A stretch of DNA of 64,000 nucleotides from a virus: IMG/VR virus record IMGVR_UViG_3300032293_002041, positions 164,973-228,972 of that record, one strand, 5' to 3'. Below, piece by piece: positions 43,767 to 60,485 of the stretch; the stretch's first letter is position 1, and the number at the start of each line of letters is the position of its first letter. Position numbers and translations under genes: made by a program. Under the pieces are notes generated by a model, which saw only the letters and a program-made list of their open reading frames with translations, was not told the origin of the DNA and did no database searches.

Positions 43767-43991
43767 ATGGCAAATTATAAGAAGTGGACCAGTACTGAAA
43801 TTGATTATATACAGAGCAATCATACTCTGCTTTGTGACGAAGCTTTAGCTTCCAAGCTGAGTCAAATAACTGGTCAAAATGTAACAACAGCTATGGTTCG
43901 TCGTCAAAGAAGAAAGCTGGCTCTGAAGAAGGCCCGAGGACGACCAAAGAAGAATAAGATTATTGAGAATAATAGTGTTATTTCTAGTTGA
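43767..43991 (+). CDS. Small DNA-binding protein with Myb/SANT-like helices and an AT-hook
   Basis: The 74-residue protein begins MANYKKWTSTEIDYIQSNH and shows a three-helix Myb/SANT-like pattern (residues 5-52, with W7 and recognition-type helix TAMVRRQRRKLAL). It is followed by ARGRPKKNK, an AT-hook that binds the minor groove of AT-rich DNA. It is transcribed away from the structural operon, and a palindrome lies in the shared intergenic region. A regulator of this boundary is likely. A terminator follows. Confidence 0.7.
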   Translation: MANYKKWTSTEIDYIQSNHTLLCDEALASKLSQITGQNVTTAMVRRQRRKLALKKARGRPKKNKIIENNSVISS

Positions 43992-44013: not shown

Positions 44014-44058
44014 TAATAATAGTTCCAGGTGGCATGATGCTGTCTGGAATTATTTTTT
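44014..44058 (+). terminator. Rho-independent terminator after the AT-hook gene
   Basis: The arms AATAAT...TTCCAG and CTGGAATTATT pair around a 15-base loop, with a small bulge, followed by a run of six T. It lies 25 bases after the stop codon and before the glycan cluster. Confidence 0.7.
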
Positions 44059-44072: not shown

Positions 44073-45020
44073 ATGGCTAATAAAATTGCAGTATTATTAT
44101 GGTTATATCATACTGACTTATGGGATGAGTTTTACTCAAAGCTATATCCTATTAAGGATCATATTCACCTGTATCTTGGATTAGAACAATCTTCTGATTC
44201 TGTGTCTATTGTCGATGTTGCTAAGGATTCTTTTCCTGATTTGCATATTTCCTTCCATGACAATTGCGGAGGAGATATTCTTCCGTTCGTACGACAAATA
44301 TCAAATCTACCAAAATCTCATGAGATATTTCTAAAATTACACTCTAAAAAAAGCAGCTTATGTAGATATGTCAATTGGAGATCGGTTTTATTGCAGAGCT
44401 ATATTGGGGATGGTGGTAGGTTTTTGAAAAATACTTCTAGGTTTCATGATCAAAGAACTGGATCCGTTTGTAATAAATCGCTACTAATGCATAATCATGA
44501 AAATACTAATTCAGCAAAAATTCAAGAATTATGTAGTATCTTGAATATAGATTATAACTCATATGGCAATGGAGACTTTTGTGCTGGTAGTATGTTCTTT
44601 GGGAGGACGAGTCTTTTTCAAAAGTATTTTAATAAAAATAGCATATTAGTATTAGAAAAGCTGTTAAGCGAAGAAAAGGGAAGGGTCGATGATAGAAAAG
44701 AAGGAAAGTATTGTCATAGCTTAGAAAGAATTTTTGGCTATTTGGTGAGAGATAGTAACTTAAATATAAAATACTCAATAGAAGATGCTGTTAAAATTCT
44801 TAATCCTCTTGCTCCTGATAAGAAGCTACATATGATTAGATTAGACAATAATGAATGCTATATACAAGAAGATACTTGTGTTTATGGTAATATCTTATCT
44901 GAAACAGATTCTTCAATAGTTATTAGATGGCTGCATTTAAAACCAGTAATAACTAGAGAATATAAAAAACTTAATAATAACACACTAGTAAAATTAAATG
45001 ACAAATCAATGGATATCTAG
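44073..45020 (+). CDS. RgpF-like (rhamnan synthesis F) glycan protein
   Basis: The 315-residue protein has the pattern of the rhamnan-synthesis protein F domain: SFHDNCGGDILPFVRQI (compare NRGRDI-PF in the family), EIFLKLHSKKS, then a Trp-Arg-containing block and GDFCAGSMFFGR. Such proteins act as glycosyltransferases in cell-wall and O-antigen rhamnan synthesis. It opens the glycan cluster, with AGGA six bases before the ATG. The C-terminal 80 residues are unassigned. A role in building a deoxyhexose-containing glycan fits the dehydratase in region 1. Confidence 0.75.
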   Translation: MANKIAVLLWLYHTDLWDEFYSKLYPIKDHIHLYLGLEQSSDSVSIVDVAKDSFPDLHISFHDNCGGDILPFVRQISNLPKSHEIFLKLHSKKSSLCRYVNWRSVLLQSYIGDGGRFLKNTSRFHDQRTGSVCNKSLLMHNHENTNSAKIQELCSILNIDYNSYGNGDFCAGSMFFGRTSLFQKYFNKNSILVLEKLLSEEKGRVDDRKEGKYCHSLERIFGYLVRDSNLNIKYSIEDAVKILNPLAPDKKLHMIRLDNNECYIQEDTCVYGNILSETDSSIVIRWLHLKPVITREYKKLNNNTLVKLNDKSMDI

Positions 45021-45870
45021 TAGTTATACTAAAAGAAAAGTGAATGAATTATGCTATCTAATCCCATCAGATTTTGATTGGGAGTTTTATATAGAAGCAC
45101 ATAAAGATTTACAAATAGCTGGAATAAAAGATGAACAAGCTGCTATGGAGCACTATGTCTTGTTTGGAGCAGCGGAACACAGAATTTCTGCTAGACAAGA
45201 CTATTATTTAGATGATATTATTAATCTTTATGATCAGCGAGATAGTGCTATCGTAGTATTTATACAGTGGTATAAGGCCGACGAAGAAACAAAAAATAAT
45301 ATGATATATTGTTTGAAGAAAAATATAATAAATAAGCATATAAAAACTGTTCATATCTTCGAAGAGAGTTGCTTAGATTTTATGGATTATTTGGATAAAG
45401 ATGAGATGCTAAAGGTCAAATATTCTAATGTATCTAGTAGATTAACCTATAAGGGATGGCTGGACTACTCTATAAAACAATATCCAAAAGACATAAAAGT
45501 ATTAATCAATTCTGATATCTATTTAGATGATAAAATTAGCATATTAAAGAAACTATTGTGGCGACACGATATTATGTATGCCTCGTCCAGGATAGATCAG
45601 GCAAAGTCTGGAGACTTAATAGAAAGCAGAGAAACTTTTGAAGAAAATTCTCCTCCAATAAATCCGTTATATTCTCAGGATTGTTGGATTTTTAGAGATA
45701 GGTTGATCGATTTTGATGCTGACTACTATTTAGGATATGAGAATTGTGATCGCAAGCTTAGGGAAAGTCTGGTATCTTCTGGTGGAAAGCTTGTGAATCT
45801 TTACAAGTTAATAAATTGCATACATGTTGATTACAGAGCTAAAAAAAATAGAAATAGATACGAGCTATAG
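44998..45870 (+). CDS. Predicted glycosyltransferase with an N-terminal FY...HY...G module
   Basis: Residues about 25-65 (DWEFYIEAHKDLQIAG, then AAMEHYVLFGAAEHR) form a short helical module commonly attached to bacterial glycosyltransferases of surface-polysaccharide clusters. The rest (VVFIQWYKADEETKNNMIYC, DIKVLINSDIYLDD) has a GT-A-like pattern with an NSD segment in place of a typical DxD. The 290-residue protein overlaps the preceding gene by 23 bases. The exact sugar cannot be inferred. Confidence 0.65.
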   Translation: MTNQWISSSYTKRKVNELCYLIPSDFDWEFYIEAHKDLQIAGIKDEQAAMEHYVLFGAAEHRISARQDYYLDDIINLYDQRDSAIVVFIQWYKADEETKNNMIYCLKKNIINKHIKTVHIFEESCLDFMDYLDKDEMLKVKYSNVSSRLTYKGWLDYSIKQYPKDIKVLINSDIYLDDKISILKKLLWRHDIMYASSRIDQAKSGDLIESRETFEENSPPINPLYSQDCWIFRDRLIDFDADYYLGYENCDRKLRESLVSSGGKLVNLYKLINCIHVDYRAKKNRNRYEL

Positions 45871-46554
45871 CTTAACTGGTTTTTCTATTTGAATAAAATT
45901 GCTCCTAGTCTGGTATTTATTTTGATCAAAATGATCCCATAATCCATTGTGATAATGTACCAACTTAAACTGTTTCCATTCATTGCTGGAAAAGTTTTCG
46001 CAGCATACTGCCTTTTTAGGAAATTCAATTGGGGATTTAGTTCTTCTATTTATGTGCATATCGCTTATATCTTTTGGTTGATTATTTTTTGCTTGTAGAG
46101 ATAAAATTTCATCAACTATACTATCTTGTTTATATGCTGAGATCAAACCATCAATAATTTTATTATGACCTTTTATGGTTGAGAATCCACAAGATCCTAT
46201 ATTGTCAATAAATACTGGATCTTTGTTTGTTAGCTTAACCATATCATCTGGAGAGAATCCGTAATTCATAACGTCATAATCGCTCCATGCTCCATCAAAA
46301 AGACCGTAGGCGAACCATCGAGAATAACATAATTCTAAATACTCGTATCCGTTAATTGAATATTTATAGAGATTAGAGGAATAATCCTTTAGATCCAATT
46401 GATCATAAAAAGGATGTTTCTTTGAGTCGTCTAGAGAAAGAACTATGGGATCCCATCCATTATCTGACCATGACTTTTCCCAAAGCTCTATGAGCTTACA
46501 AGAATCTCTGCTAAACTCTGTATCTAGAGATTGATAAAAACAAGTAATTTGCAT
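45865..46554 (-). CDS. Hypothetical glycan-cluster protein, possible glycosyltransferase
   Basis: The start ATG at 46554 comes one base after the stop of the upstream minus-strand gene, so the two are coupled; a longer TTG start overlapping that gene is less likely. The 229-residue product begins MQITCFYQSLDTEFSRDSCK. It includes LELCYSRWFAYGLFDGAWSD and YDVMNYGFSPDDM, which recall glycosyltransferases of the GT-A type with an SDYD in place of DxD. It is convergent with the preceding gene, whose end it overlaps by six bases. Confidence 0.55.
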   Translation of the reverse strand: MQITCFYQSLDTEFSRDSCKLIELWEKSWSDNGWDPIVLSLDDSKKHPFYDQLDLKDYSSNLYKYSINGYEYLELCYSRWFAYGLFDGAWSDYDVMNYGFSPDDMVKLTNKDPVFIDNIGSCGFSTIKGHNKIIDGLISAYKQDSIVDEILSLQAKNNQPKDISDMHINRRTKSPIEFPKKAVCCENFSSNEWKQFKLVHYHNGLWDHFDQNKYQTRSNFIQIEKPVKL

Positions 46555-46555
46555 A

Positions 46556-47641
46556 TTATTTTTTATGAATAATGTAATAGTTGTATAGTCTTTGTATCTG
46601 TTCGATTGAAAGACGCTGGTCAGCACTTGTGCTAAAGTTTCCAATTAATTTGTTTGGCAGATAGTTTCTATTGATGAATTTCCATAATAATATATCTTCT
46701 GGACTGTCTATATGACTATTTATGTTATTGTCTATGAAAATTTTTATTCCATAGTCATAGGCCAGATCGGGCATTCCGTCTTGGATTTTCTTCAATATAA
46801 ATATCTTGGCAAAATTGATAAATGTTTGAAGATTATGATTTCCTGTTGCATATAATGCTGTTCCTCCGTTTATGTGGGTCATCATGTAAGAGGAGGCCTT
46901 GCATGGGATTATTCCATCGTATATGGATCCCGATATCCAAAAACCATTAGAGTTTAATACAAAGTTTTTAAGTTTATCTAACCAACCATTTGTAAAAAAA
47001 CAGTCTGTTTCTAATAAAAGAGTGGTATTGTGTTTTTGGCATAACTCTATAGCTTTAAAAAACATAATATTTGGCCCGGACTTTGTTCCATACTCTGGTA
47101 TTTTATCCAGAATCAATTCTGAATTTTTTATATATAAGTCTTCTTCTGGAGATAGTTTCAAATTAATAATATTGATATTGTTAAATATAGGATCTAGAAT
47201 ATGAATTTGTAATCTACTTGTCTCGACTTCTTGATTCAGTAGAATTATAAAAGATATATCCTTAGCTTCTTCTGGTTTAGTGTTTTCTTTTATTCTATTA
47301 ATTAAACTACTATAAGAACCATCTAAGATCTCTCTGGTAGTTAAAAGTAAGCATATGCATTCTAACTTATTTGAAGCAAACTTCATTTCTGTTAACGACA
47401 TATGAGTTAAAAGAGATGTATTATCTATTTCCTTAATTTCTTTCTCTTCTATATTTTTAAATCTATTTTCTTTCTTCCCAAATTTGTAATAGTGGTTGTA
47501 CAACCTTTCTTTAAGAGAGGTGTTCGATAGATACTTGCAATATGACAAGGTGTCTGGGTATTCTGAAGCATAGAATTCATAATCAAAAGAACTATCTATG
47601 TGGTCTTCCGATATCCACACTTTGTGAGAATTATTTGTCAT
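46556..47641 (-). CDS. Predicted glycosyltransferase with an FY...HY...G module
   Basis: Residues about 18-60 (FDYEFYASEYPDTLSY, then ERLYNHYYKFGKKENR) repeat the helical module seen in two other proteins of the cluster. The main domain has TTLLLETDCFFTNGWLDKLK, a GT-A metal-site-like ETD in a hydrophobic strand, and later HINGGTALYATGNHNLQTF. The 361-residue protein is transcribed on the minus strand against most of the cluster, together with the downstream coupled gene. Confidence 0.65.
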   Translation of the reverse strand: MTNNSHKVWISEDHIDSSFDYEFYASEYPDTLSYCKYLSNTSLKERLYNHYYKFGKKENRFKNIEEKEIKEIDNTSLLTHMSLTEMKFASNKLECICLLLTTREILDGSYSSLINRIKENTKPEEAKDISFIILLNQEVETSRLQIHILDPIFNNINIINLKLSPEEDLYIKNSELILDKIPEYGTKSGPNIMFFKAIELCQKHNTTLLLETDCFFTNGWLDKLKNFVLNSNGFWISGSIYDGIIPCKASSYMMTHINGGTALYATGNHNLQTFINFAKIFILKKIQDGMPDLAYDYGIKIFIDNNINSHIDSPEDILLWKFINRNYLPNKLIGNFSTSADQRLSIEQIQRLYNYYIIHKK

Positions 47642-47732
47642 TTGAGCAATTATTCTTGCCTGAGATATGAAATTGATTACTATATTATAGCAATAATCTT
47701 TATTCTGTCAAAAGAGTTAATGGTTGACTAGC

Positions 47733-50066
47733 ATGGATATTCTTACTTTTTATCAAAACCATAAAATAAACAAAGACTTTGATGAGATACTATATCAATC
47801 GAGATATCCTGAGACTATAGATTTTTATCAACCTTATTGTAATGAAAATAATATAAATGATAAGCACAGACTATATTTTCATTACCATTTATATGGTAAA
47901 CAGACAAAAACCCATAGTGGTTTTAATAGACTAATAGATTTTTACCTATTCAATAAGATTGATGAATTTTTTGATGAAATTCTATATCAAAGTATGTATC
48001 CAGAAACAAAAGACTTCTATCAGCCAGAATGCCGTAATAATGATATAGATGAAAAACATAGGCTATATTTTCATTTTAAAAACTACAACAGAAATGCTTT
48101 TCAAAAAATAGATGATTATTGTCTTGTAGAAGAATGTTCTAGTATTTCTAATTATGGAGTTCATTTATTTCCATATGAGTCAACAGAATTACAGGATGTT
48201 TCTGCTAGACAAAGTACCGCAATCAATTCATATGTATCACACAAAATACCAGAGATACAAATTATTAGCTTTGGTAAAAATAATCCTAATATATCAGATG
48301 TAGAGTATGTATCAATTAAGGACATAAATCATCAAGGAATAAAATGCGATAGAGACTATTACTTTTTAGGAGATATACTGGAGTACGGCTTAACTATTAC
48401 AAAGCCTGACGACTATATCATATATACGAATTCAGACTGCTTTATTAAAGATAGGTTTTATAGTTTCATATTAACTAGTAGCTATGACTATATTGAATTT
48501 TTTAGACTAGAAACAACAAATGATAGAATCATTGGTCAAAACAAGGATGGTATAGATGGCTTTGCTATTAAACATAGTTTATTACAAAAGCTATTTGATA
48601 AAAATATTCTACCCAAAGATCTGATTCTTGGCGCCCCTTACTGGGATGCTATTGTTTCAAGCATAGCTAGAAAATATATAGATAATAAGTATCAAGATAC
48701 TAGCAGATTGTATCATACTAAACATATCCCCAGATGGAGCTTTGGAGAACTGGACTATGCTGGCAAGCATAATCTTTCTATACTGAATAAAATATACGAT
48801 AGTGGTATTATTAATTGTAGAAAAGCTGAAATAAAATCTGATAATTTAGTAATTAGGATATTTGATAGTAAAACAAATTTTGTTGATGCTAAAAAAATAA
48901 TCTCTAATGAAAGATTTGGAAATAATAAAATAAAAACATTTGACTATAACTATTTATTTCTTCAAAAGGGTATTTCTCTTTTGACTGATGAAAATCTAGG
49001 AACCACTGCTGGAACTCGGTATTTAGTTAATGAAAGCAATATTCAATCAGTTATAGATGAAGAGTTAAGTAAATACAAGAGATACGTTATACTAGAAGAA
49101 AATCAGCAACTATGTGAATCCACACAGTTTATTCCTTCTCAAAAAGATCCGGTGTTAGGAATAGTTCTATGCTTTTTTGGAAATGATGATCTTAGAATTA
49201 AATCAGTAAAAAGAGCCCTGGTGGAATTTCAAAAACAAACTATTTGGAAAAAATCTAAAGTAGTTTTTATAGAGTTGATAGATAATGGTATTAGTAATTT
49301 TGATTTTTCAGATCACGCTAATGTATCTCATTTACAAATAAAATCTAAAGAATCAAATAAAAACTTGTTCCAGAAAGAGTGTCTTTGGAATATAGGAGCT
49401 AATTATATATCAAAAAGCGTGGATAATTTCATTTTTATAGACGCTGATACTTTTCCTCAACATAAAAAACTGTTTGCTAAAACCAACAAAATATTACGTC
49501 ACGATCCAAACACAGTATTTCAACTTGGTAACTGTTTGATTACCCAAAAAGAAGATGGAGAAATCACAAGACTTCAATGGTTATGGAATAGTTTCTCTAA
49601 GCTTAAAGCTACAGAGTCCTATTGTTTTAATCCCTGCGGAGGATTTGGAATTTCTAAGAAAGTATTTAATCAAATAAATGGATTCAATCCATATGGATTA
49701 TTATACGGTGGAGACATATTATTTGTTTATGAAATAGATAAAAGGTCTCGTGTTATATGGAATTACGAGATGAATTATATGAATATATTTAAGAATATGA
49801 GTAGAGAGTTAGACACTAGGAATATTATTGTCAAAAATGAAGAGTCTCCATTGATTCATTGTTGGCATGGAGATCACGAACAAAGACCATATCGAATCTG
49901 GGGATTAGTATTCAACGAACTAGAATTTAATAAAGACGAAATAAGACTTGATGAGGATGGGCTGTTATCTTGGTCTGATGATGAAAGTCAATTAAAATAT
50001 AGCAAGTTTTTTCAAAATAAGAAACACATTACAGATATCAAAACTCATAGAAAACTATATTTATGA
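47733..50066 (+). CDS. Large protein with tandem N-terminal modules and two glycosyltransferase-like domains
   Basis: The start chosen is ATG at 47733; a TTG three codons earlier is possible. The first 130 residues hold two copies of a unit with FDEILYQSxYPETxDFYQP and KHRLYFHY, a diverged form of the cluster's FY...HY...G module. A first GT-like domain includes YIIYTNSDCFIKDRFYSFIL. The second, from about residue 480, has VDNFIFIDADTFPQHK with a DxD metal site and CGGFGISKKVFNQINGF and GLLYGGDILF, as in GT2 galactosyltransferase-type enzymes. It probably adds two linkages of one glycan. Confidence 0.75.
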   Translation: MDILTFYQNHKINKDFDEILYQSRYPETIDFYQPYCNENNINDKHRLYFHYHLYGKQTKTHSGFNRLIDFYLFNKIDEFFDEILYQSMYPETKDFYQPECRNNDIDEKHRLYFHFKNYNRNAFQKIDDYCLVEECSSISNYGVHLFPYESTELQDVSARQSTAINSYVSHKIPEIQIISFGKNNPNISDVEYVSIKDINHQGIKCDRDYYFLGDILEYGLTITKPDDYIIYTNSDCFIKDRFYSFILTSSYDYIEFFRLETTNDRIIGQNKDGIDGFAIKHSLLQKLFDKNILPKDLILGAPYWDAIVSSIARKYIDNKYQDTSRLYHTKHIPRWSFGELDYAGKHNLSILNKIYDSGIINCRKAEIKSDNLVIRIFDSKTNFVDAKKIISNERFGNNKIKTFDYNYLFLQKGISLLTDENLGTTAGTRYLVNESNIQSVIDEELSKYKRYVILEENQQLCESTQFIPSQKDPVLGIVLCFFGNDDLRIKSVKRALVEFQKQTIWKKSKVVFIELIDNGISNFDFSDHANVSHLQIKSKESNKNLFQKECLWNIGANYISKSVDNFIFIDADTFPQHKKLFAKTNKILRHDPNTVFQLGNCLITQKEDGEITRLQWLWNSFSKLKATESYCFNPCGGFGISKKVFNQINGFNPYGLLYGGDILFVYEIDKRSRVIWNYEMNYMNIFKNMSRELDTRNIIVKNEESPLIHCWHGDHEQRPYRIWGLVFNELEFNKDEIRLDEDGLLSWSDDESQLKYSKFFQNKKHITDIKTHRKLYL

Positions 50067-50815
50067 ATATTGTAACCGTATTTGATTATGATTTGAAAGA
50101 CATTAATAATCAGACTATGCTAAGGATGTTTCTTGGAGGCATTTTAGAGCATTGCCTTAATTTTCCATACAAGATATGGATTATTACTAGTCAAGTTGAT
50201 GCTATAGATAGTATGTTTAATAGTTCTTCGATAAGAACAATAAGAGCAAAAAACAATAAATATGATATTCCGTCAAACATGCCCAATATCAAATATAAGC
50301 TATATAATTTATGTAATTTAAATTTTGAGTTTATCTATTTAGATTGTGATACGTATGTTAATAGTGATTTGTCTTATCTTTGGGATAAAAGAAAAGATAA
50401 GCCATTCACATCAACTGTGCATCAAAAAAATATCGAAGGACATACTTCAGATAAAAGTGACTTTATGAACTCTGGATTGCAAATAGTCTCAGACCCGGAC
50501 TTTTTGGATTATGACAAACTCTATGAACTTGCACAACAACTAAACTTTAAGTTTGACGTGCCAGGCACAGACCAGGCATTGCTAGATGTTTATTGTAGAA
50601 AAATAGGATACAATTTTGTTCATAAAGACATAGGGTGTGAATACAATTCTTGTGCTGGCTATGGATTAGTTGATATTGATGATGAATATAACTTCAATAT
50701 TACCTATAAAAATAAAGATACAGAGTATGCGGTAAAAATTAATCATTACTGGAATGAGTTCAAACCATGGGTGATAAATTGTCCTATTTTCAAATTTTAT
50801 AAAGAGACTATTTAG
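50063..50815 (+). CDS. GT8-like glycosyltransferase
   Basis: The 250-residue protein shows the family 8 pattern: FEFIYLDCDTYVNSDLSYLW with the DxD metal site (DCD), an NSGLQIVSD block and GTDQALLDVYCR near residue 170. These enzymes are retaining transferases that use UDP-sugars. The ATG overlaps the stop of the preceding gene (ATGA), and its own stop overlaps the next start, so the cluster is translated as a coupled operon. Confidence 0.75.
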   Translation: MNIVTVFDYDLKDINNQTMLRMFLGGILEHCLNFPYKIWIITSQVDAIDSMFNSSSIRTIRAKNNKYDIPSNMPNIKYKLYNLCNLNFEFIYLDCDTYVNSDLSYLWDKRKDKPFTSTVHQKNIEGHTSDKSDFMNSGLQIVSDPDFLDYDKLYELAQQLNFKFDVPGTDQALLDVYCRKIGYNFVHKDIGCEYNSCAGYGLVDIDDEYNFNITYKNKDTEYAVKINHYWNEFKPWVINCPIFKFYKETI

Positions 50816-51726
50816 TGTTAGAAATATTATTAAATGAATATGCAGATACTAATAGATACATAAACAATATCAAACATAATTATGTTTTACCCAATAATGA
50901 TATCTCAAGTATTTTTTTCTACAGAATAGATTGCTTAGGAGGAGTTCCGCTAGTAGTTTTTTTATACGATGTTTACGGATTAGACGGCATTGAAAGATAC
51001 AAAAAAATATCTTTAAATCATTGTTTGCATATTCATAATGGAATTTATCCTTTAGATGCTACTATTATAGAAAGTTTTTGTAAGTATTATGTAGAAACTC
51101 TTAAAAACTGTACTTACATAGGATGCTGGGATAAGGGATATATTCCAGAGTTATATTTAATAGATAAATACTGTAAAGGTAAGGCTGTGGACAAGCCATA
51201 TAATAGTGGTCACGAAGGAAACACCATTTGGTTCAATAAAGACAACTGGTATGAAAAACTAAGAGATAAAAAAATACTAGTAATATCTAGTCATTGTGAA
51301 TCCATGAAACAACAGTGGCTATCCAATAGCTTATTTAAAAGCCACAACAAGAACATCAAAAACGAAGAAACTGGGGTTGAGCTAGTTTTTGTTAAGCCCC
51401 CAATGTCTGCCTGTGGATTGTCTCCAAATGCCTCCTGGATTGAGAGCTTGGATATTTTTAAAAAAGATGTTGATATGGCGCTACAAACTTTTGATTTAGA
51501 TTTGGCCCTAGTTAGTTGCGGAGGATACAGCGCCCCGATATGTAACTATATTCATAGCAAATATAATAAAAGTGTATTTTATATTGGAGGAGCTTTGCAG
51601 TTATATTTTAGTATTATTGGTAATAGATGGATCAAACAACCATTTATAAACGAATATTGGACTAGGCTCTCTGAAGATGAAATACCAAATAATTTCAAGT
51701 CAATAGAAAACGGATGTTATTTTTAA
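50815..51726 (+). CDS. GT-D-like polysaccharide-cluster protein
   Basis: A GTG start overlaps the previous TAG by one base. The 303-residue product ends with a highly characteristic block: ALVSCGGYSAPICNYI, VFYIGGALQLYFSIIGNRW and NEYWTRLSEDEIPNNFKS followed by ENGCYF. This is shared by proteins found in many bacterial surface-glycan clusters and resembles the GT-D fold of DUF1792-type glycosyltransferases. A transferase role is likely but the donor and acceptor are unknown. Confidence 0.65.
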   Translation: MLEILLNEYADTNRYINNIKHNYVLPNNDISSIFFYRIDCLGGVPLVVFLYDVYGLDGIERYKKISLNHCLHIHNGIYPLDATIIESFCKYYVETLKNCTYIGCWDKGYIPELYLIDKYCKGKAVDKPYNSGHEGNTIWFNKDNWYEKLRDKKILVISSHCESMKQQWLSNSLFKSHNKNIKNEETGVELVFVKPPMSACGLSPNASWIESLDIFKKDVDMALQTFDLDLALVSCGGYSAPICNYIHSKYNKSVFYIGGALQLYFSIIGNRWIKQPFINEYWTRLSEDEIPNNFKSIENGCYF

Positions 51727-51733
51727 CAAAAAT

Positions 51734-52249
51734 ATGAATACTATTTATGAACCATATTGGTTTAATTATCAAGATTTTTATAAGTTTGTTAGTACACACA
51801 ACTATAAAACATTTGTAGAACTTGGCGTATGGCTTGGACATTCTGTTAGTTTTTTAGCGAAGCACTTGGAATATGGTTCTGTTATTTATGCTATTGACCT
51901 ATTCGATGATAGTTACGCCCATAAGAACTATGATCATTTAAATGGGTTAAGATATGAGTTATTTAAGAAAAATACAGCAGAGTATAAACATATAATAAAA
52001 CCTATACACTCTTGTAGTTGGGTCGCCGCAGATATGTTCGAAAATCAGTCTGTAGATTTCGTGTTTATAGATGCTGATCACTCTTACGAGTCAGTATGTA
52101 AGGACATAGACGGTTGGTTGAGCAAGATAAAAAAGGGAGGCATCTTGGCTGGGCACGATTATTTTAATGCAGACGGCGTAAAGCTAGCTGTAGATACAAA
52201 ACTAAATGACGTTAAAATATATGGTTCTTGTTGGTATAAATATATTTAA
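51734..52249 (+). CDS. Class I SAM-dependent methyltransferase
   Basis: The 171-residue protein has motif I as FVELGVWLGHSVSFLA, a following acidic AIDLFDDS, and VDFVFIDADHSYESVCKDID with KKGGILAGHDY, the pattern of the Methyltransf_24 family. It transfers a methyl group from S-adenosylmethionine. Inside this cluster a sugar O-methyltransferase acting on the glycan is the natural guess. Confidence 0.8.
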   Translation: MNTIYEPYWFNYQDFYKFVSTHNYKTFVELGVWLGHSVSFLAKHLEYGSVIYAIDLFDDSYAHKNYDHLNGLRYELFKKNTAEYKHIIKPIHSCSWVAADMFENQSVDFVFIDADHSYESVCKDIDGWLSKIKKGGILAGHDYFNADGVKLAVDTKLNDVKIYGSCWYKYI

Positions 52250-52266
52250 CTTTTAAGTGATTAATT

Positions 52267-53148
52267 ATGGACAAAATACTATGGCATTACTTTTGTAGAA
52301 ATTTTTTAAACGATAAATACACAAAATATTTATTGATTAGCATTCATAGTTTAATAGAAACCGGTAAAGTTGACCCAAAAGATATTTTCATTTCTTTGGA
52401 TGGGCCACCAAATTTTGAAAACACGTATCTGCAAAAAATTATGGATTATGGAGTGAATATAACAAATGCGCCAAGATACAAAAATCATTCTAAAGCTACC
52501 AATCTATGCAGAGTTATAAAAGAAAATAGGGATATTGATAAAATAGTTCAAATTGATTGTGATACAATCATTACAGATAGCGACATTATTAATAAGATAT
52601 CAGATTTGGATGGAGCAGTAAATCATACTACAATAAACTGGCCAATTGCCAAGGTATTTGATAGTAGAGACGGATTGAAACATCCAACTTTTGGAGCAGA
52701 ACATTTTGTTGGGTCATCTGATCATTCTAGAAATTTATTGTTCTCTATTCGCAAGAACAATCAAGCACGATATGAGGCTTTTAAAGATTTTATGGAGCTA
52801 ATGTTCGACATGGACTTGGAAGCTACTATAGAAAAGTTAAAGACTGAAAGTAGAATGTTTGTGGGATATGCTTTTGTATTGAGTCCTAAGATTATACCGG
52901 AAAAATTTTTAAAGTTCATTTCAATATTAGACTTATTCTTCGGTGATGACGAGATGATATTTACTCTGGCTAGAGAGTATTGCGGTATTGAATATCATGA
53001 TATTAATAAAAATGGGAGAATAGTAACTGGGGCTGTTACCATGGAGGATTTTAATAGATATAAAGGAATAGTACATTTTCCAGTAAAAGATGAAGAAATT
53101 ATAGAACCAATAAATAAAATGGCTGAAGAAATATTGTGTGAGGAATAG
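52267..53148 (+). CDS. Predicted GT-A glycosyltransferase
   Basis: The 293-residue protein contains DKIVQIDCDTIITDSDIINK, a GT-A metal site DCD at the end of a hydrophobic strand, near residue 98. The N-terminal KYLLISIHSLIETGKVDPKD resembles the donor-binding half of family 8 and related transferases. The following YKGIVHFPVK is like the conserved His of GT8 enzymes. The donor sugar cannot be inferred. Confidence 0.65.
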   Translation: MDKILWHYFCRNFLNDKYTKYLLISIHSLIETGKVDPKDIFISLDGPPNFENTYLQKIMDYGVNITNAPRYKNHSKATNLCRVIKENRDIDKIVQIDCDTIITDSDIINKISDLDGAVNHTTINWPIAKVFDSRDGLKHPTFGAEHFVGSSDHSRNLLFSIRKNNQARYEAFKDFMELMFDMDLEATIEKLKTESRMFVGYAFVLSPKIIPEKFLKFISILDLFFGDDEMIFTLAREYCGIEYHDINKNGRIVTGAVTMEDFNRYKGIVHFPVKDEEIIEPINKMAEEILCEE

Positions 53149-53152
53149 TAAT

Positions 53153-53773
53153 ATGAAGATAACAAGAGATCGAAGTCCCTTTTTCTTTGTACACACCTAT
53201 AAAAACTTAGGAACCACTGTTATTTCACAGCTGCATGAGGAATACAGAGTTAGGTTTTTTGGAAATAAGACATTAGATACTTGGGAAATTGAAAATGAAG
53301 AATCATTAGATCATGAAACAAAAGCAAATTTGTTTAAGGAAAAAGATAAACTTATATCTATAGATCATATCAAAATCGATGAATTGCTAAGTTTGGGAAT
53401 TCTGGACGAATGGGATCTGAATAATAGAAGATTTTTGTCTATTGTTAGGGAACCGATAAGTAGATTCTTATCTATGTGTAATTACTTAAAAAAACATCCA
53501 AAAGAAATGATGAGATATTTAAAACCTTGGCATAAACAAACTTCGTCTTTTGAATCAGCTCATCCTATTGATGTTACTTTAATGCTGATGGAAAAACCAA
53601 AATTGATAGAACAGTGGTTTGAGCAATTTAATCTTAAAATAACACTAGATAAAAAACTCAATGTTAGTAACAAACAATATTTTGTTGATGATATTTGTAA
53701 AGAAGACTTAGAAAAAATAAAGAAATTTTTTGAAGACGATTTTAAGCTTTATGAAAAATTAAAAAATAAATAG
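53153..53773 (+). CDS. Sulfotransferase family protein (1)
   Basis: The start chosen is ATG at 53153 with AGGA upstream; a GTG five codons earlier overlaps the previous gene. The 206-residue product has HTYKNLGTTVISQL near residue 14, which matches the 5'-phosphosulfate loop of PAPS-dependent sulfotransferases (compare HIPKTGGTS). It also has FLSIVREPISRFLSM, the 3'-phosphate-binding motif. It should transfer sulfate from PAPS to a carbohydrate. It is rather short for the family. Confidence 0.75.
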   Translation: MKITRDRSPFFFVHTYKNLGTTVISQLHEEYRVRFFGNKTLDTWEIENEESLDHETKANLFKEKDKLISIDHIKIDELLSLGILDEWDLNNRRFLSIVREPISRFLSMCNYLKKHPKEMMRYLKPWHKQTSSFESAHPIDVTLMLMEKPKLIEQWFEQFNLKITLDKKLNVSNKQYFVDDICKEDLEKIKKFFEDDFKLYEKLKNK

Positions 53774-53784
53774 GGTCTTGTATT

Positions 53785-54633
53785 ATGAAAATAGCATTCT
53801 TTGGAGCTTCAATAACTCAGCAAAAAACTGGCTATGTTAGCTTTTTTAAGAATCTGAATCAGAATTATTTTGTTAGTCAATTCGGATATGGAGGTATGAA
53901 TATTAGTGATGCGGGGGTTTGTTATATAGATGGGGTAATTCGGTCAAATCCTAATTATTGTTTTTTAGATTGGTTTAGTCCAGAATGCTATAGACCTCCA
54001 AAAAAGATCGATATATACGTTGATGTTTTAGTGGAAAAATTATTAACTATTGATTGTTATCCTATTTTCTTGTTCTTCTATAGGAAAGATATGGATCGTG
54101 GGTGGTTTGATATGTTTGAGCATTTAAAAAGCTATGGGCAAAAATATTCTATAAATAGTATTGATTTATCAAAACTGGAAAATGCTTCTGATTATCTGAG
54201 AGATTCTATTCATACTAATGATCTTGGATCAGAAAAGTATGGGTCAATTATTAGTGAAACATTTCATAATATGACTTTTCAAAAAAACTTTATTATTCCA
54301 GAGAAAAATAGATTGAGCAGAATAACCTCTATCAATTTGGGAATTGTGGCTAAAGAGTATGTTAAGCTTAAAAGTTCTGGATTTTCTAGTATTGTGGGAA
54401 TTTTACAAAAAGTGGGGCCTTATAGTGGTGGGGTCATTTGTATTAGTGGAGGTAAAGAGAGTATGGTGGATTTGAAAGATAAGTGGTCAGAAAGATATGA
54501 ACGGAAAACTATTAAGTTTAATATTGATACATTTTGTGGCGAGTTGGTTGTGAAGGTGTCAGAATCTAATAAGTTGGTGTGGGAAGAGCTATTTTATACG
54601 GGCGATCCTATTGAGTTGGTGGAATATGTATGA
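53785..54633 (+). CDS. SGNH-fold esterase or acyltransferase
   Basis: The 282-residue protein starts MKIAFFGASITQQ, which supplies the nucleophile Ser9 of SGNH block I. Gly37 in FGYGGMN matches block II, and D140-x-x-H143 in LRDSIHTNDLG supplies the acid and base of block V. The usual block III Asn is not obvious. SGNH enzymes add or remove acetyl groups on polysaccharides. The C-terminal 110 residues form an additional beta domain. In this cluster O-acylation or de-acylation of the glycan is likely. Confidence 0.75.
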   Translation: MKIAFFGASITQQKTGYVSFFKNLNQNYFVSQFGYGGMNISDAGVCYIDGVIRSNPNYCFLDWFSPECYRPPKKIDIYVDVLVEKLLTIDCYPIFLFFYRKDMDRGWFDMFEHLKSYGQKYSINSIDLSKLENASDYLRDSIHTNDLGSEKYGSIISETFHNMTFQKNFIIPEKNRLSRITSINLGIVAKEYVKLKSSGFSSIVGILQKVGPYSGGVICISGGKESMVDLKDKWSERYERKTIKFNIDTFCGELVVKVSESNKLVWEELFYTGDPIELVEYV

Positions 54634-55333
54634 AAACATGATTTTTATATGTGGGTGTGGTCATTCTGGTACTACCATTTTAAATAAGATAATGAGTAAT
54701 CATAGAAATATTTATGGATTAGATTATGAGACTGGAATTTTTGTAAAATATAAGGGTGAAAAGCTAAATAGTGAAATTGATAAGTTAGATAAACAAAGAA
54801 AGTTATGCAAGAAAAGGTGGGTGTGTGAGAAGACTCCGGGACATGTTTATCATATAGATAATATATTTCAATTGGTAAGGTCTCCGAAAGTTATTGTGCT
54901 GGTGAGAGATGGACGAGATGTTGTGTGTAGTTTGCATAAAAGATATAGCAATTTTGAGTTTAGCATTAACAGATGGATAAAAGATAATCAGGAGTGGTTA
55001 AATAGTGAACATGGGGGCGAGTTACATGTGCTAAAATATGAAGACTTCGTGAAAAGACCTGGGGCTGAGCTTAGAAAGATATGTTCTTATCTAGAAGAAG
55101 ACTATGATGATGAAATGTTAAACTATCCTAAAGAAGAATTAGTATTACCAGAAGATATCTTTGACAAAGAAATTAGCGGAGAATATCATAGACTATTGAG
55201 ATTATATCAAATCAATCAGAATCTATATGATGGAAGCAAAAGATATTTGAAAGATCTTAATAAGGAGCAGATGAATCAGTTGTTTCTGAATGAATCTTTC
55301 GTGACTCTGATGACAAAATTAGGATACCTCTGA
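54626..55333 (+). CDS. Sulfotransferase family protein (2)
   Basis: The frame could start at ATG 54626 or 54638. The protein shows MIFICGCGHSGTTILNKIM, the PAPS 5'-phosphosulfate loop (GCGHSGTT), and KVIVLVRDGRDVVCSL, the 3'-phosphate motif, followed by HVLKYEDFVKRPGAEL. This is the Sulfotransfer_3-type layout. It overlaps the SGNH gene by eight bases. It is unrelated in detail to the preceding sulfotransferase, so the cluster may sulfate two positions. Confidence 0.85.
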   Translation: MYENMIFICGCGHSGTTILNKIMSNHRNIYGLDYETGIFVKYKGEKLNSEIDKLDKQRKLCKKRWVCEKTPGHVYHIDNIFQLVRSPKVIVLVRDGRDVVCSLHKRYSNFEFSINRWIKDNQEWLNSEHGGELHVLKYEDFVKRPGAELRKICSYLEEDYDDEMLNYPKEELVLPEDIFDKEISGEYHRLLRLYQINQNLYDGSKRYLKDLNKEQMNQLFLNESFVTLMTKLGYL

Positions 55334-55360: not shown

Positions 55361-55385
55361 GTCGATAATAGTAGTGTGGAAATCG
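55361..55385 (+). promoter_or_regulatory. Degenerate copy of the early promoter spacer
   Basis: The sequence gtcgataata followed by agtgtgga matches the spacer and start of the -10 region of the cassette promoters at 62414-62442 and 63100-63128. Neither hexamer is intact here. It looks like a decayed cassette end between the glycan cluster and the first early-type gene. Confidence 0.35.
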
Positions 55386-55416
55386 GTCAATTTACTTTAT
55401 TAAACGGGGATTTTTT

Positions 55417-55713
55417 ATGAAAAAGGCTTTAGTTCTAGCATCATTAGTCCTAGGTATTGGTGCAGGAGAGACTTGTATGGGAGGTGATTGGGTGCCGATG
55501 ACTCAGGTAGTTCAAAAGGTGGAATATGTTCCATACTACTATTCTGTTCCGGCTGTAACTATGGTTCCGTTGGTTACTTATTATGCTCCGGTGGTAAAGT
55601 ATGAGAATGTGATGGTGGAAACTCAGAGTTGGTGTCTTTTAAAGAAATATCAGATGGTAACGGTGCCAAAAGTAGTTTATGTTCCTATAAGCCAGGGGCC
55701 TTATAGGTACTAG
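55417..55713 (+). CDS. Small secreted Val/Pro/Tyr-rich protein
   Basis: The 98-residue protein begins with a signal peptide (MKKALVLASLVLGIGAGETC, cleavage likely near residue 22). The mature part alternates Val, Pro and Tyr (YVPYYYSVPAVTMVPLVTYY). Similar short secreted proteins are, in my recollection, frequent in Planctomycetota, which hints at the host. Its role is unknown; it might act in the envelope. GGGG precedes the ATG. A terminator-like hairpin follows at 55826. Confidence 0.65.
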   Translation: MKKALVLASLVLGIGAGETCMGGDWVPMTQVVQKVEYVPYYYSVPAVTMVPLVTYYAPVVKYENVMVETQSWCLLKKYQMVTVPKVVYVPISQGPYRY

Positions 55714-56896: not shown

Positions 56897-56900
56897 GGTA

Positions 56901-56930
56901 TTGACAACGGAATAGCCGATACTGTATAAT
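56901..56930 (+). promoter_or_regulatory. Sigma70-type promoter
   Basis: A perfect TTGACA (56901-56906) and a perfect TATAAT (56925-56930) are separated by 18 bases, upstream of the 49-residue zinc-site gene. Confidence 0.75.
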
Positions 56931-56962
56931 AGAACCAACACAAGAGAAAAGGAAAAAGAAAC

Positions 56963-57112
56963 ATGGAAAACGTCGTTACCGTCTACTTCACTTCTGACTG
57001 CTGCAATTGCGAAATGACCTTTGCTCAGGCCGATTACGGTATCTGCCCTAGCTGTGGAGAACACTGCGAGGTTATCGGGGAGGAAGTATCCGAAGATAAT
57101 GGGGAGTATTGA
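56963..57112 (+). CDS. Tiny zinc-ribbon-like protein (49 residues)
   Basis: The product begins MENVVTVYFTSDCCNCEMTF and continues through ICPSCGEHCEV. The CCNC and CPSC pairs fit a one-zinc ribbon. The C-terminus is acidic (EEVSEDNGEY). Such mini-proteins may bind nucleic acid or host protein, but no family is assigned. It has its own promoter, and cassette C follows six bases later. Confidence 0.7.
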   Translation: MENVVTVYFTSDCCNCEMTFAQADYGICPSCGEHCEVIGEEVSEDNGEY

Positions 57113-57117
57113 GGCTT

Positions 57118-57298
57118 GACGTAAAGCCTTATGTGGTAAAGACTTACGACTTGCCGGGCGGGCCGAATTCGACGTAAGTACTTGACAGATAACGACTTAC
57201 GACAATTGGCACGGTATTTGCTATGAGAAACCTTACGAAAATGTAAGGAAAGTTTTCTACTGTAGGGTATTGACGTTGGACGATAATGTATGTATAAT
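57118..57298 (+). repeat. Cassette C: stem-loops, GC core and promoter
   Basis: The left half-unit GACGTAAAGCCTTATG to CTTACGAC is followed by the GC core at 57156-57165, the right half-unit GACGTAAGTACTTGAC to CTTACGAC, a segment ttggcacggtatttgct, the hairpin CCTTAC (57231-57236)/GTAAGG (57243-57248), and the promoter TTGACG (57270-57275)/TATAAT (57293-57298), spacer 17. The spacer holds GACGATAAT. Confidence 0.85.
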
Positions 57299-57335
57299 GA
57301 TGACACAAGAGAACGGTAACGCAAAGGAAAAGAAA

Positions 57336-57554
57336 ATGAGCAATGTATCTTTCGACATGGTGATGGCTGGCGTTCGACAGGTGTTCGGCAAGGAATCGTA
57401 TCGTGTTCGCGTCGTCCACTCTGGTGCGTATACGCGAGTCGAGTCAAAAGAGATGCTTCACTCTGTCACGATCAAGTCGAATGATACGATCATGGAAAAG
57501 CTGAATGAGCTGTTCTATGATGTGGTGTGTGAAGATTGTGCGTCGGGCATCTAG
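57336..57554 (+). CDS. Small hypothetical early protein (72 residues)
   Basis: The start ATG at 57336 follows AGGA by eight bases; an earlier in-frame TTG lies in the promoter and is discounted. The product begins MSNVSFDMVMAGVRQVFGKE and ends FYDVVCEDCASGI. A CEDC pair lies at the C-terminus. No family is recognised. It is the first gene after cassette C. Confidence 0.7.
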   Translation: MSNVSFDMVMAGVRQVFGKESYRVRVVHSGAYTRVESKEMLHSVTIKSNDTIMEKLNELFYDVVCEDCASGI

Positions 57555-57556
57555 GC

Positions 57557-57586
57557 TTGACAAGACAGTAGCGTATACGGTATAAT
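57557..57586 (+). promoter_or_regulatory. Sigma70-type promoter
   Basis: TTGACA (57557-57562) and TATAAT (57581-57586) with spacer 18, starting three bases after the stop of the previous gene. Confidence 0.75.
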
Positions 57587-57614
57587 ACCACCAACACAAG
57601 AAAGAGAGTTGAGT

Positions 57615-57773
57615 ATGTTTGAAATCGGAGAAAATGTTCGTTGCGGTGGTGTTGTGGGTCAGATTGTTGGCGTTCGATATGATCGACACGATCATGTCGC
57701 AACATGGACGATTGCTGTGAATCACAGTGACGAAGTCATTACTGCGGAAACTAACGAAATAGAAACCCTCTAA
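57615..57773 (+). CDS. Small SH3/KOW-like early protein (52 residues)
   Basis: The product begins MFEIGENVRCGGVVGQIVGV and continues RHDHVATWTIAV. The pattern EIG(E/D/N)xVxxxG...G.I...Y/F is shared with four other proteins in this region (58189, 59877, 61543 and, more loosely, 62038) and suggests a small beta-barrel. Function unknown. Confidence 0.7.
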   Translation: MFEIGENVRCGGVVGQIVGVRYDRHDHVATWTIAVNHSDEVITAETNEIETL

Positions 57774-57792
57774 GCAAGAGAAAGAGAAAAAG

Positions 57793-58008
57793 ATGCTTCA
57801 GACCAACTGCAAAACTGTGACGAACAACCTTGACAAGATTTTCGCTGCTATGCGAGCTGGCAAGTATCACTGTGTGATCGACCCAAGGGGTAATGCTCAT
57901 GTGGGCCTTATCAACAGCATCATGCGTGAAGATGGTAGCGGAAAGAATTGGATCGTGACGGTGACCAGCCGTACAGTAAGTGAAAAGGTGTTCATTCACG
58001 CTTCGTGA
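57793..58008 (+). CDS. Small hypothetical early protein (71 residues)
   Basis: The product begins MLQTNCKTVTNNLDKIFAAM and contains GKYHCVIDPRGNAHVGLINS. It has no promoter of its own; it follows the previous gene by 19 bases with a purine-rich ribosome site. The stop codon overlaps the start of cassette D. No family is recognised. Confidence 0.65.
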   Translation: MLQTNCKTVTNNLDKIFAAMRAGKYHCVIDPRGNAHVGLINSIMREDGSGKNWIVTVTSRTVSEKVFIHAS

Positions 58009-58163
58009 CGTAAACCCCTACCCTATAAGCACTTAGGGCTAGGCGGGCGGGCCGATTTTGACGTAAGTGTTTGCCATATAACGACTTACGGCAACCTTGC
58101 AGTATTGTAAGAAAACTTTTTCTGCTGTAGGCTATTGACATTTGACGATAATAGATGTATAAT
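58007..58163 (+). repeat. Cassette D: stem-loops, GC core and promoter
   Basis: The left half begins GACGTAAACCCCTACCCTA and pairs CCCTA with TAGGG. The GC core is at 58045-58054. The right half is GACGTAAGTGTTTGCC to CTTACGGC. The promoter is TTGACA (58135-58140)/TATAAT (58158-58163), spacer 17 with GACGATAATA. The first base of the cassette lies inside the stop codon of the preceding gene. Confidence 0.85.
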
Positions 58164-58188
58164 GATAGCACAAGAAAGAGGTGAGATG

Positions 58189-58350
58189 ATGGATTTCGAA
58201 ATTGGCAATAAGGTGATGGTAGGTGGGATTCAGGACAAGGGTACGATCATCGGATGGTTCTTCGATGAGGGGAATATGTGGGTTGTGCAGTTCCCCAACG
58301 GTCTGACCATCGACTGTTTTGAGCAAGAGCTGACCAAGATTGGCTCTTGA
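58189..58350 (+). CDS. Small SH3/KOW-like early protein (53 residues)
   Basis: Two adjacent ATG codons at 58186 and 58189 are possible; the second has the better spacing from GAGG. The product begins MDFEIGNKVMVGGIQDKGTI and continues GWFFDEGNMWVVQFPNG. It aligns with the proteins at 57615 and 59877. The TGA stop lies inside the next promoter's -35 box. Confidence 0.75.
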   Translation: MDFEIGNKVMVGGIQDKGTIIGWFFDEGNMWVVQFPNGLTIDCFEQELTKIGS

Positions 58351-58375
58351 CAAGTACCTAACCCCTAGCTACAAT
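58347..58375 (+). promoter_or_regulatory. Sigma70-type promoter overlapping a stop codon
   Basis: TTGACA (58347-58352) contains the TGA stop (58348-58350) of the upstream gene. TACAAT lies at 58370-58375, spacer 17. Confidence 0.7.
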
Positions 58376-58400
58376 TCAATCACAAGAAAGAGAGAAACTA

Positions 58401-58514
58401 ATGATTACGGTTATCGAATACGTTCAGCTGTTTGCCTTGATTGCTTTTGCTGGTTTCATTTCGTATACTGTTCACGAAGTGGCTAATGCTATCGATTCCA
58501 TTCTTCACGACTGA
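58401..58514 (+). CDS. Tiny membrane protein (37 residues)
   Basis: The product begins MITVIEYVQLFALIAFAGFI and ends YTVHEVANAIDSILHD. It has one clear membrane segment (about 5-21) and a polar tail. AAGAAAGAGAGA precedes the ATG. Such micro-proteins may alter the host membrane; no family is recognised. Confidence 0.65.
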   Translation: MITVIEYVQLFALIAFAGFISYTVHEVANAIDSILHD

Positions 58515-58521
58515 GGGAACT

Positions 58522-58716
58522 ATGTCTCTGAAACATTGCTCATCGCAGGGGAACGTTATGATTGCCAAAACTCTATCTGGTACTGACGTTACCATAAACG
58601 ACAGCGATATCGTTATTGTGGACGGTAAGCCCGTTATCGTGTTTTTCGTTGTTGACAGCAACGGACAGCATGGTATATTCAATCAGAACCAGTTGACCGA
58701 TTACAAAGAGGTTTGA
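58522..58716 (+). CDS. Small hypothetical early protein (64 residues)
   Basis: Starts at 58522 (GAGG five bases before) and 58558 (AGGGG seven bases before) are both possible. The product contains MIAKTLSGTDVTINDSDIVI and PVIVFFVVDSNGQHGIF, a beta-rich domain with a small SH3-like look. It follows the tiny membrane gene by seven bases and overlaps the region before the next gene. Confidence 0.6.
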   Translation: MSLKHCSSQGNVMIAKTLSGTDVTINDSDIVIVDGKPVIVFFVVDSNGQHGIFNQNQLTDYKEV

Positions 58717-58718
58717 GT

Positions 58719-59018
58719 ATGACACACAGTGAAGCAGTGAAGATGGTTCGTGGTAAGACCAATAAGGATACTCGCAAGGTTGGCAACAACACCTATGCCT
58801 ACATCCAGGCCGATGGTAGCGTTGCAATAGAGTTGCATGGTACGAATGTCGTGGTGATTTATCCCGACGATACTGTTATGCTCAATAGTGGTGGATGGCA
58901 TACGCACACCACTAAGAAGCGTATCAATCAGTATTCACCCGTACAGGTATGCCAGAAGAACTATGAATGGTACCTGAAAGATGGCACACCATTTGAGGAT
59001 CGTATGGTAGTGAGTTGA
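58719..59018 (+). CDS. Conserved phage protein (99 residues)
   Basis: The start ATG at 58719 has GAGG seven bases before it. The product shows SEAVKMVRGKTNKDTRKVGN, then AIELHGTNVVVIYPDDTVML, LNSGGWHTHTTKKRINQY and YLKDGTPFEDRM. I recognise this pattern as a family common in diverse phages, of unknown function. Cassette E starts inside its stop codon. Confidence 0.75.
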   Translation: MTHSEAVKMVRGKTNKDTRKVGNNTYAYIQADGSVAIELHGTNVVVIYPDDTVMLNSGGWHTHTTKKRINQYSPVQVCQKNYEWYLKDGTPFEDRMVVS

Positions 59019-59172
59019 TATAAAGCCTTGACCGTAAAGAACTTACGGCGAGGCGGGCGGGCCGGGATCGACGTAAGTGCTTACCCCATAAGGACTTACA
59101 GTAACCTTACAGCATTGTAAGAAAACTTTTCTATCGTAAAGCATTGACAATGGACGATAATATGTGTAGAAT
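59017..59172 (+). repeat. Cassette E: stem-loops, GC core and promoter
   Basis: The left half runs GATATAAAGCCTTGACCG to CTTACGGC. The GC core is at 59055-59064. The right half is GACGTAAGTGCTTACC to GGACTTACAG. The promoter is TTGACA (59144-59149)/TAGAAT (59167-59172), spacer 17 with GACGATAATA. Confidence 0.85.
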
Positions 59173-59197
59173 CATAGGACAAGAAAGAGAGTTTCAA

Positions 59198-59398
59198 ATG
59201 GAAAAGTCGGTTTCGGTTCAAGGTTTTACTCGTTCGCTCCCCACCATCTATCTGTACGACCATGTGGTCCGTCTGAAAAGTGGTGCATCCTACAGGGTGT
59301 CTCGATGCCATTCGCATCGTGAAGTGTACCAATACATGCGTTCACTAGGCTACGATCCTAAGGATATTGTGAGCGTCACTTCGGTGACCCCTAAGTAG
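59198..59398 (+). CDS. Small early protein, MEKSVSV paralog 1
   Basis: The start ATG at 59198 lies 26 bases after the -10 box. The 66-residue product begins MEKSVSVQGFTRSLPTIYLY and is closely related to the protein at 60671, sharing MEKSVSVxxFTRSLPxIY, the V(R)xKxGxxYxxSRC block and a YxxMRSxGxDxK end. The basic character suggests nucleic-acid or protein binding. Function unknown. Confidence 0.75.
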   Translation: MEKSVSVQGFTRSLPTIYLYDHVVRLKSGASYRVSRCHSHREVYQYMRSLGYDPKDIVSVTSVTPK

Positions 59399-59404
59399 AG
59401 GGGC

Positions 59405-59432
59405 TTGACGCGGGGGAAAAGTTTGGTAGAAT
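59405..59432 (+). promoter_or_regulatory. Sigma70-type promoter
   Basis: TTGACG (59405-59410) and TAGAAT (59427-59432), spacer 16 (cgggggaaaagtttgg). The spacer end aaaagtttgg recurs in the promoter at 61737. Confidence 0.7.
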
Positions 59433-59455
59433 ACAAAAAAGAGAAAGAGAGAAAA

Positions 59456-59836: not shown

Positions 59837-59876
59837 GACGATATAAGAGATAGAGAAGAAAGAAAGAGAGAAAAGA

Positions 59877-60023: not shown

Positions 60024-60048
60024 CAGGAGTTGAGAAAATCGCTACAAT
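60020..60048 (+). promoter_or_regulatory. Sigma70-type promoter overlapping a stop codon
   Basis: TTGACA (60020-60025) contains the TGA stop (60021-60023) of the previous gene. TACAAT lies at 60043-60048, spacer 17. Confidence 0.7.
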
Positions 60049-60073
60049 GCACTCACAAGAAAGAGAGAAAGAA

Positions 60074-60454: not shown

Positions 60455-60485
60455 ACTATCACTACTGCACAAAAGCATAGCAGTT

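Follow-up and report, generated by a model that had tools for sequence, protein, structure and literature searches.

On which acceptor would a block of glycan enzymes act when a phage carries it as exchangeable cargo? The question is raised by twelve genes at 44073-55333 of a 64,000-base stretch of viral DNA (the window; positions 164973-228972 of the 228,972-base virus record IMGVR_UViG_3300032293_002041). We read this block as a swappable cytosolic kit for glycan assembly and sulfation, the acceptor of which would most likely be the fibres of the phage itself, and we give this reading a probability of roughly one in two. It is based on the structure of the island, the enzyme families encoded, the missing membrane export machinery, the recurrence of such genes across the phage family and the placement of similar enzymes at the fibre loci of relatives.

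A mobile island at one fixed site

The twelve genes form a cleanly bounded mobile cargo island at one fixed site, here called hotspot 1, extending from a terminator to a promoter-like element. The features of the site are the following (pLDDT, predicted local distance difference test; AF2, AlphaFold2; GT, glycosyltransferase; PAPS, 3'-phosphoadenosine 5'-phosphosulfate; SAM, S-adenosylmethionine).

43767-43991, + strand: conserved left-border gene of hotspot 1, 74 residues, present in 50 of 80 terminase (terL) loci
44018-44054, + strand: intrinsic-terminator-like hairpin, the left island edge, retained in the empty site of relatives
44073-45020, + strand: g01, RgpF-like glycosyltransferase (Pfam RgpF, E=1e-11)
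44998-45870, + strand: g02, predicted GT-A fold glycosyltransferase (AF2 pLDDT 77, Foldseek)
45865-46644, - strand: g03, putative glycosyltransferase without Pfam match (35% homologue in L217)
46556-47641, - strand: g04, putative glycosyltransferase (37% to an L217 fusion protein, 31% to L237)
47684-47711, - strand: consensus sigma-70 promoter before g04 (TTGACA-16-TATAAT, extended -10, 12/12 matches)
47724-50066, + strand: g05, putative two-domain glycosyltransferase of 780 residues, without Pfam match
50063-50815, + strand: g06, GT8-like glycosyltransferase (Glyco_transf_8, 1.8e-4, below cut-off)
50815-51726, + strand: g07, GT-D-like protein (GT-D-like, 2.4e-4, below cut-off)
51734-52249, + strand: g08, SAM-dependent O-methyltransferase (Pfam Methyltransf_24, 9.7e-20)
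52267-53148, + strand: g09, putative GT-A transferase (QIDCDTII motif read from the sequence; no Pfam match)
53138-53773, + strand: g10, sulfotransferase (Sulfotransfer_2, 7.6e-5, marginal; PAPS motifs)
53785-54633, + strand: g11, predicted SGNH-fold esterase or acyltransferase (AF2 and Foldseek)
54611-55333, + strand: g12, sulfotransferase (Pfam Sulfotransfer_3, 2.9e-21)
55376-55395, + strand: conserved element GTGGAAATCGGTCAATTTAC, the right island edge, preceding the right-border gene
55417-55713, + strand: right-border gene, 98-residue predicted secreted protein, adjoining the left-border gene in island-free relatives

All twelve open reading frames (ORFs) listed in a preliminary description of this DNA are present, ten on the + strand and two (g03 and g04) on the - strand. 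The true start of g03 is probably, from its sequence, an internal ATG at 46554, so that the 89-base overlap with the neighbouring gene disappears. The consensus sigma-70 pattern occurs six times in the window; 0.11 occurrences would be expected by chance. Four perfect TTGACA/TATAAT promoters lie in a small-gene region of higher GC content (about 45%) at 56900-60700.

The window terminase (38369-40402) has 540 relatives among viral contigs, and our terminase-locus counts refer to the best 80 of these (79-100% identical to it); related genomes are labelled G and loci or contigs L. None of the cluster genes was found in the 80 loci, except for weak methyltransferase matches. Both flanking genes do occur in terminase loci, and they are immediate neighbours in L018/L097, L012/L096 and L026/L111. 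In G001 and G002 the empty site is uninterrupted, with the terminator hairpin, approximately 30-40 bases, GTGGAAATCGGTCAATTTAC and the next gene in succession; in the window, the terminator lies to the left of the island and the GTGGAAATCGGTCAATTTAC element, which is identical in both empty sites and occurs once in the window, to its right. The flanking genes of G001 are approximately 95-97% identical to those of the window, yet the island is lacking, and near relatives differ in its presence or absence at this one fixed site. Across six related genomes the twelve genes are missing from most, with a full-length relative only for g01 (44%, G008) and weak partial matches only for g08. Other cargo at hotspot 1 in relatives includes subtilases, GlmS-like and GDP-fucose-synthase-like enzymes, a glycosyltransferase-like protein without Pfam match and, as judged from sequence, a homing-endonuclease-like gene.

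The dehydratase gene (gmd) at 41099, which the preliminary description had counted as part of the same system, does not belong to it: it lies outside the cluster and is part of the core gene set of the family, with copies in 69 of the 80 terminase loci and in all six compared genomes, island or not. This genome yielded no GDP-fucose-synthase-like partner, and the cluster does not hold a GDP-deoxysugar pathway of dehydratase and linked reductase or synthase. As the dehydratase is core, unlinked and without such a partner, the proposed deoxysugar is unproven. Further core glycosyltransferases of the family are located at contig positions 63511 and 107835-113892.

Enzymes encoded by the island

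With several glycosyltransferases clustered, the block has the make-up of a phage glycan cargo island, and Pfam supports its RgpF, Methyltransf_24 and Sulfotransfer_3 members. The transferase types proposed earlier fared unequally. RgpF is confirmed for g01 (44.6 bits, cut-off 25), GT8 for g06 (21.6, cut-off 24.3) and GT-D for g07 (21, cut-off 27) are sub-threshold, and the "GT2-like" g05 has zero Pfam matches; g05 also has zero matches among phages, and a weak, partial match (25%) in L174, a 434-kb viral contig. For g09 neither a Pfam match nor a homologue in the phage family was found. The AF2 model of g02, built with family homologues as the alignment (homologues occur in L178, L217, L255 and L234), predicts a GT-A fold, and Foldseek matches it to chondroitin polymerase and GalNAc-transferases alike. 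Its N-terminal module, FYxxxHxDL...HYxxxG, is shared with g04. In the more general form FYxxxxxDL...HYxxxGxxExR the module is found in g02, g04, twice in g05 and in many glycosyltransferases of the family, and it matches no Pfam family.

The two sulfotransferases announced in the preliminary description are both borne out, to different degrees. In addition to Sulfotransfer_3, g12 matches Sulfotransfer_1 (E=4.2e-10) and sulfotransferases in the PDB (CurM ST at 9e-5). For g10, Sulfotransfer_2 is barely above threshold (23.4 bits, cut-off 22), and PHROG 3347, galactose-3-O-sulfotransferase, is matched at 0.0021; PHROGs are otherwise uninformative for the cluster genes, and NCBIfam names none of those tested. 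PAPS-binding (5'-PSB) loops, CGHSGTT and HTYKNLGTT, and 3'-phosphate motifs of the R...S type, RDGRDVVCS and REPISRFLS, can be read in the two proteins. Judged by Pfam cut-off and both motifs together, g12 clearly and g10 marginally qualify as PAPS-dependent sulfotransferases.

The SGNH assignment of g11 likewise stood, although Pfam returns zero matches. Its AlphaFold model is of low confidence (pLDDT 46.5), the best Foldseek matches are SGNH/GDSL esterases (E of approximately 2e-6) with the O-acetyltransferase PatB lower in the list, and S9, D140 and H143 are conserved in a 37%-identical homologue in L178. The modelled fold, the block I Ser and the block V Asp-x-x-His would place g11 in the SGNH superfamily; the canonical block III Asn is not evident in its sequence. 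Of the chemistry proposed earlier, the capacity for sulfation and methylation holds, but acylation is doubtful: g11 lacks a membrane acyltransferase as partner, and its activity may be that of an esterase.

Related cargo at a second hotspot

Searches with g01 returned 17 relatives (37-44%) in viral contigs, and those that were mapped belong to this phage family. Most adjoin a dCMP-deaminase-like gene, a site that we call hotspot 2, and one (L184) follows a fibre gene. A survey of 80 hotspot-2 loci yielded 212 cargo ORFs, which fall into 70 groups; many resemble glycosyltransferases, methyltransferases and nucleotide-sugar enzymes, and among those tested Pfam recognizes NeuB, cytidylyltransferase, DegT/FdtA and UDP-galactopyranose mutase. 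One hotspot-2 island (L234:1201-3746) carries NeuB and CMP-sugar transferase genes of the nonulosonic-acid type.

Seven of the twelve island genes (g01, g02, g03, g04, g07, g08 and g11) have hotspot-2 homologues, so that the island resembles a hotspot-2 set placed in hotspot 1. For instance, g01, a g02-g04 fusion and g03 occur together in L217, g07 has homologues in the islands of L234, L238, L190 and L237, and g08 has a 43% homologue in L234. For the remaining five (g05, g06, g09, g10 and g12) no close homologue was found in the phage family, and together with the variation of hotspot-1 cargo among relatives this would suit passenger DNA, that is, a fragment of host exopolysaccharide genes without phage function. 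We consider such an origin unlikely, given that every frame is intact, that the composition of the island agrees with the AT-rich genome of the phage, that hotspot-2 islands throughout the family keep homologues of seven genes, and that sets of sulfotransferases and glycosyltransferases recur at three kinds of site.

Sulfotransferases beside fibre genes in related phages

Family contigs encode 15 distinct sulfotransferase-like proteins in addition to the window pair. Pfam supports the tested proteins of L184, G004 and G008; of the two in L179 it supports one and gives no match for the other, and the L255 protein is sub-threshold. Six loci (L179, L180, L182, L237, L247 and L255) carry them at hotspot 2, and the remainder lie within fibre operons. 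In G008 a Sulfotransfer_3 gene begins approximately 20 bases past a fibre gene, and a near copy adjoins a fibre-like gene in L252. A GT25-sulfotransferase fusion and a Methyltransf_24 protein directly follow the Ser-rich fibre genes of G004. Among the collagen-repeat fibre genes of L184, the end of one such gene overlaps with an RgpF-like gene, and two sulfotransferase genes come next. The fibre genes of G001, G002 and G003 include a GT2-family enzyme, and the G002 fibre locus also has a sulfotransferase-like gene that Pfam does not recognize. Since similar enzymes, including sulfotransferases, lie among the tail-fibre genes of relatives, the phage may decorate its own fibres.

Two further proteins were noticed at fibre loci: one in the fibre region of the window (28643-30403), containing an FGE-sulfatase (C-type-lectin-like) domain (E=3.7e-11), and one of the alginate-lyase family (E=5.5e-47) beside glycan enzymes in the G003 fibre locus (L166:17593-18705).

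Searched singly in viral contigs, g10 and g12 have no relative, and 50,697 phage records searched by tblastn contained no match to either, in agreement with the earlier remark that sulfotransferases are unusual in phages. Sulfotransferases have been described in OM43 phages and Synechococcus phage S-SRM01, with a function stated to be unclear (PMC10580990).

Phage glycosyltransferases can also modify DNA (work cited in PMC12619734), and a dCMP deaminase-like gene is located in hotspot 2. Glycosylation of hypermodified bases as a means of evading restriction is nevertheless very improbable here: it would not account for sulfotransferases, SGNH enzymes or the many glycosyltransferase types that are swapped, we noticed neither a hydroxymethylase nor a base-modifying partner in the gene list, and relatives place the same enzyme types with fibre genes.

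Fibres or host envelope as acceptor

None of the twelve island proteins has a convincing transmembrane segment by hydropathy (g07 has two adjacent windows barely over threshold), and the 212 hotspot-2 cargo proteins have at most one hydrophobic segment each. Neither the island nor this cargo includes the polytopic flippase, polymerase and lipid-carrier transferase of a Wzx/Wzy locus, and no multi-pass protein such as the membrane GtrA and GtrB/GtrC of gtrABC-type systems is found among the twelve. The lack of multi-pass membrane proteins disfavors both an exported polymer and gtr-type serotype conversion, and serotype conversion was set aside.

Under the fibre reading, the island products would be cytosolic, and several glycosyltransferases would build a short glycan with nucleotide sugars of the host. 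Its decoration would fall to one methyltransferase and to two sulfotransferases, the latter using host PAPS, and the SGNH enzyme would add or trim acyl groups. The likeliest acceptors would be the Ser/Thr/Asn-rich or collagen-like fibre proteins of the phage, modified in the cytosol before assembly; swapping of islands would then alter the charged glycan coat of the virion. It is in this sense that we infer the structure of the glycan, its fibre acceptor and an effect on adsorption. A wider claim, that the family sulfates its tail-fibre glycans through interchangeable cassettes and so obtains charged, antigen-like variation with unchanged fibre genes, is speculative and we hold it as doubtful.

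Alternatively, the island could act early on the host envelope, changing a capsule or O-chain with the use of the host lipid carrier and flippase and thereby blocking competing phages. Glycosyltransferase clusters of cyanophages and pelagimyophages are mostly interpreted in this way (PMC7824862, PMC7029224). The island also borders the small-gene region with several consensus sigma-70 promoters, and the one preceding g04 would allow early expression by the host polymerase. The missing flippase, polymerase, ligase, lipid-carrier transferase and gtrA-like protein (in the island and the 212 hotspot-2 proteins) weaken the host surface as a target, and modification of the envelope does not explain why relatives have the same enzyme types in their fibre operons. 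We regard it as possible, though improbable on balance. Of the two targets named in the preliminary description, missing export machinery and fibre-operon placement favor the fibres, only moderately.

Several points weigh against a fibre acceptor. The island lies outside the fibre region, on the far side of the terminase-side genes, and most of it is on the strand opposite to the fibre genes; placement in the tail-fibre or host-recognition region is seen in G002, G003, G004, G008 and L184, not for the window island. Phage fibres in general are often rich in Ser, Thr and Asn. We identified no protein O-glycosyltransferase of known specificity, cytosolic enzymes can modify lipid-linked intermediates that host flippases export, and host identity and PAPS supply are unproven. 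Moreover, the authors who described similar phage clusters took them to counter superinfection by modifying the O-antigen or the surface (PMC7824862, PMC7029224).

Comparison with known systems

Glycan islands in large aquatic phages are already known; what is new here is the organization over several hotspots and the recurrent sulfotransferases, some of them embedded among fibre genes. Mimivirus has glycosylated collagen-like fibrils and virus-encoded glycan machinery with GT25-family enzymes. The collagen-like fibres and GT25-family enzymes of L184 and G004 are alike, but mimivirus is a eukaryotic virus and the comparison is an analogy only. The host recognition cluster of pelagimyophages and cyanomyophages is, like the island, hypervariable, rich in glycosyltransferases and swapped between related phages (PMC7029224). 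It belongs to a different phage family and is mixed with tail-fibre genes, whereas the window island lies apart from them and the family uses three kinds of site (two hotspots and the fibre operon). The capsular polysaccharide modification clusters of jumbo phages and cyanophages are similarly sporadic and polymorphic, with several glycosyltransferase families, but they include sugar kinases and isomerases for their own precursors, of which the island has none (PMC7824862). Neither report mentions a sulfotransferase; the island has two and adds sulfation. In mycobacteriophages, decoration of capsid and tail tube by phage glycosyltransferases has been demonstrated (Freeman et al., 2023, as cited in PMC12619734), while in our case virion glycosylation is deduced, with many more enzymes and with sulfation added. 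The aquatic phages of PMC10580990 share Sulfotransfer_3 genes with the window, although the excerpted account does not link these to glycan islands or fibre genes.

Sulfation of the fibres, if real, would provide a function for such phage sulfotransferases. Cassette swapping would offer phages a way to vary their surface chemistry, and the usual reading of phage "lipopolysaccharide" clusters would move from host-surface change to virion decoration. The choice between virion and host is testable with island-carrying and island-free relatives, whose flanking genes are 95-97% identical.

Phage family and host

Several of the terminase relatives lie on contigs of 190-230 kb, and named phages match the window terminase at only approximately 22-33% identity. 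By these sequences, the source phage is a member of a large, uncultured, aquatic family of tailed phages. "Moraphages" was considered as a family name: they likewise have core glycosyltransferases, but their predicted hosts are Bacteroidota (PMC12619734).

A scan of genome contigs with the terminase returned only two short contigs from metagenome-assembled genomes, one of Alphaproteobacteria and one of Flavobacteriales; these conflicting phyla are probably binning errors, and no host was assigned from the scan. A DUF1501 protein (E=2e-101) is encoded at L003:17895-19139 (G000:37895-39139), a second one in L236 (7215-8600), and a DUF1552 protein in L228 (8718-9953). The secreted subtilases of hotspot 1 (L096:7620-9227, also L023, L041, L044, L081 and L100) carry in several cases an N-terminal LExKxLLS-type motif; the corresponding Pfam family, Planc_extracel (PF07595), was below cut-off (best E 0.0098). 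DUF1501, DUF1552 and subtilases with such an N-terminus are features that we take to be typical of Planctomycetota, and they are suggestive of a host in that phylum. Elsewhere in the genome, a RecA/UvsX-like gene (L006:15397-17445; G000:95397-97445) is interrupted at the Walker A motif by an intein-like insertion, and its G008 counterpart is uninterrupted, at 337 residues.

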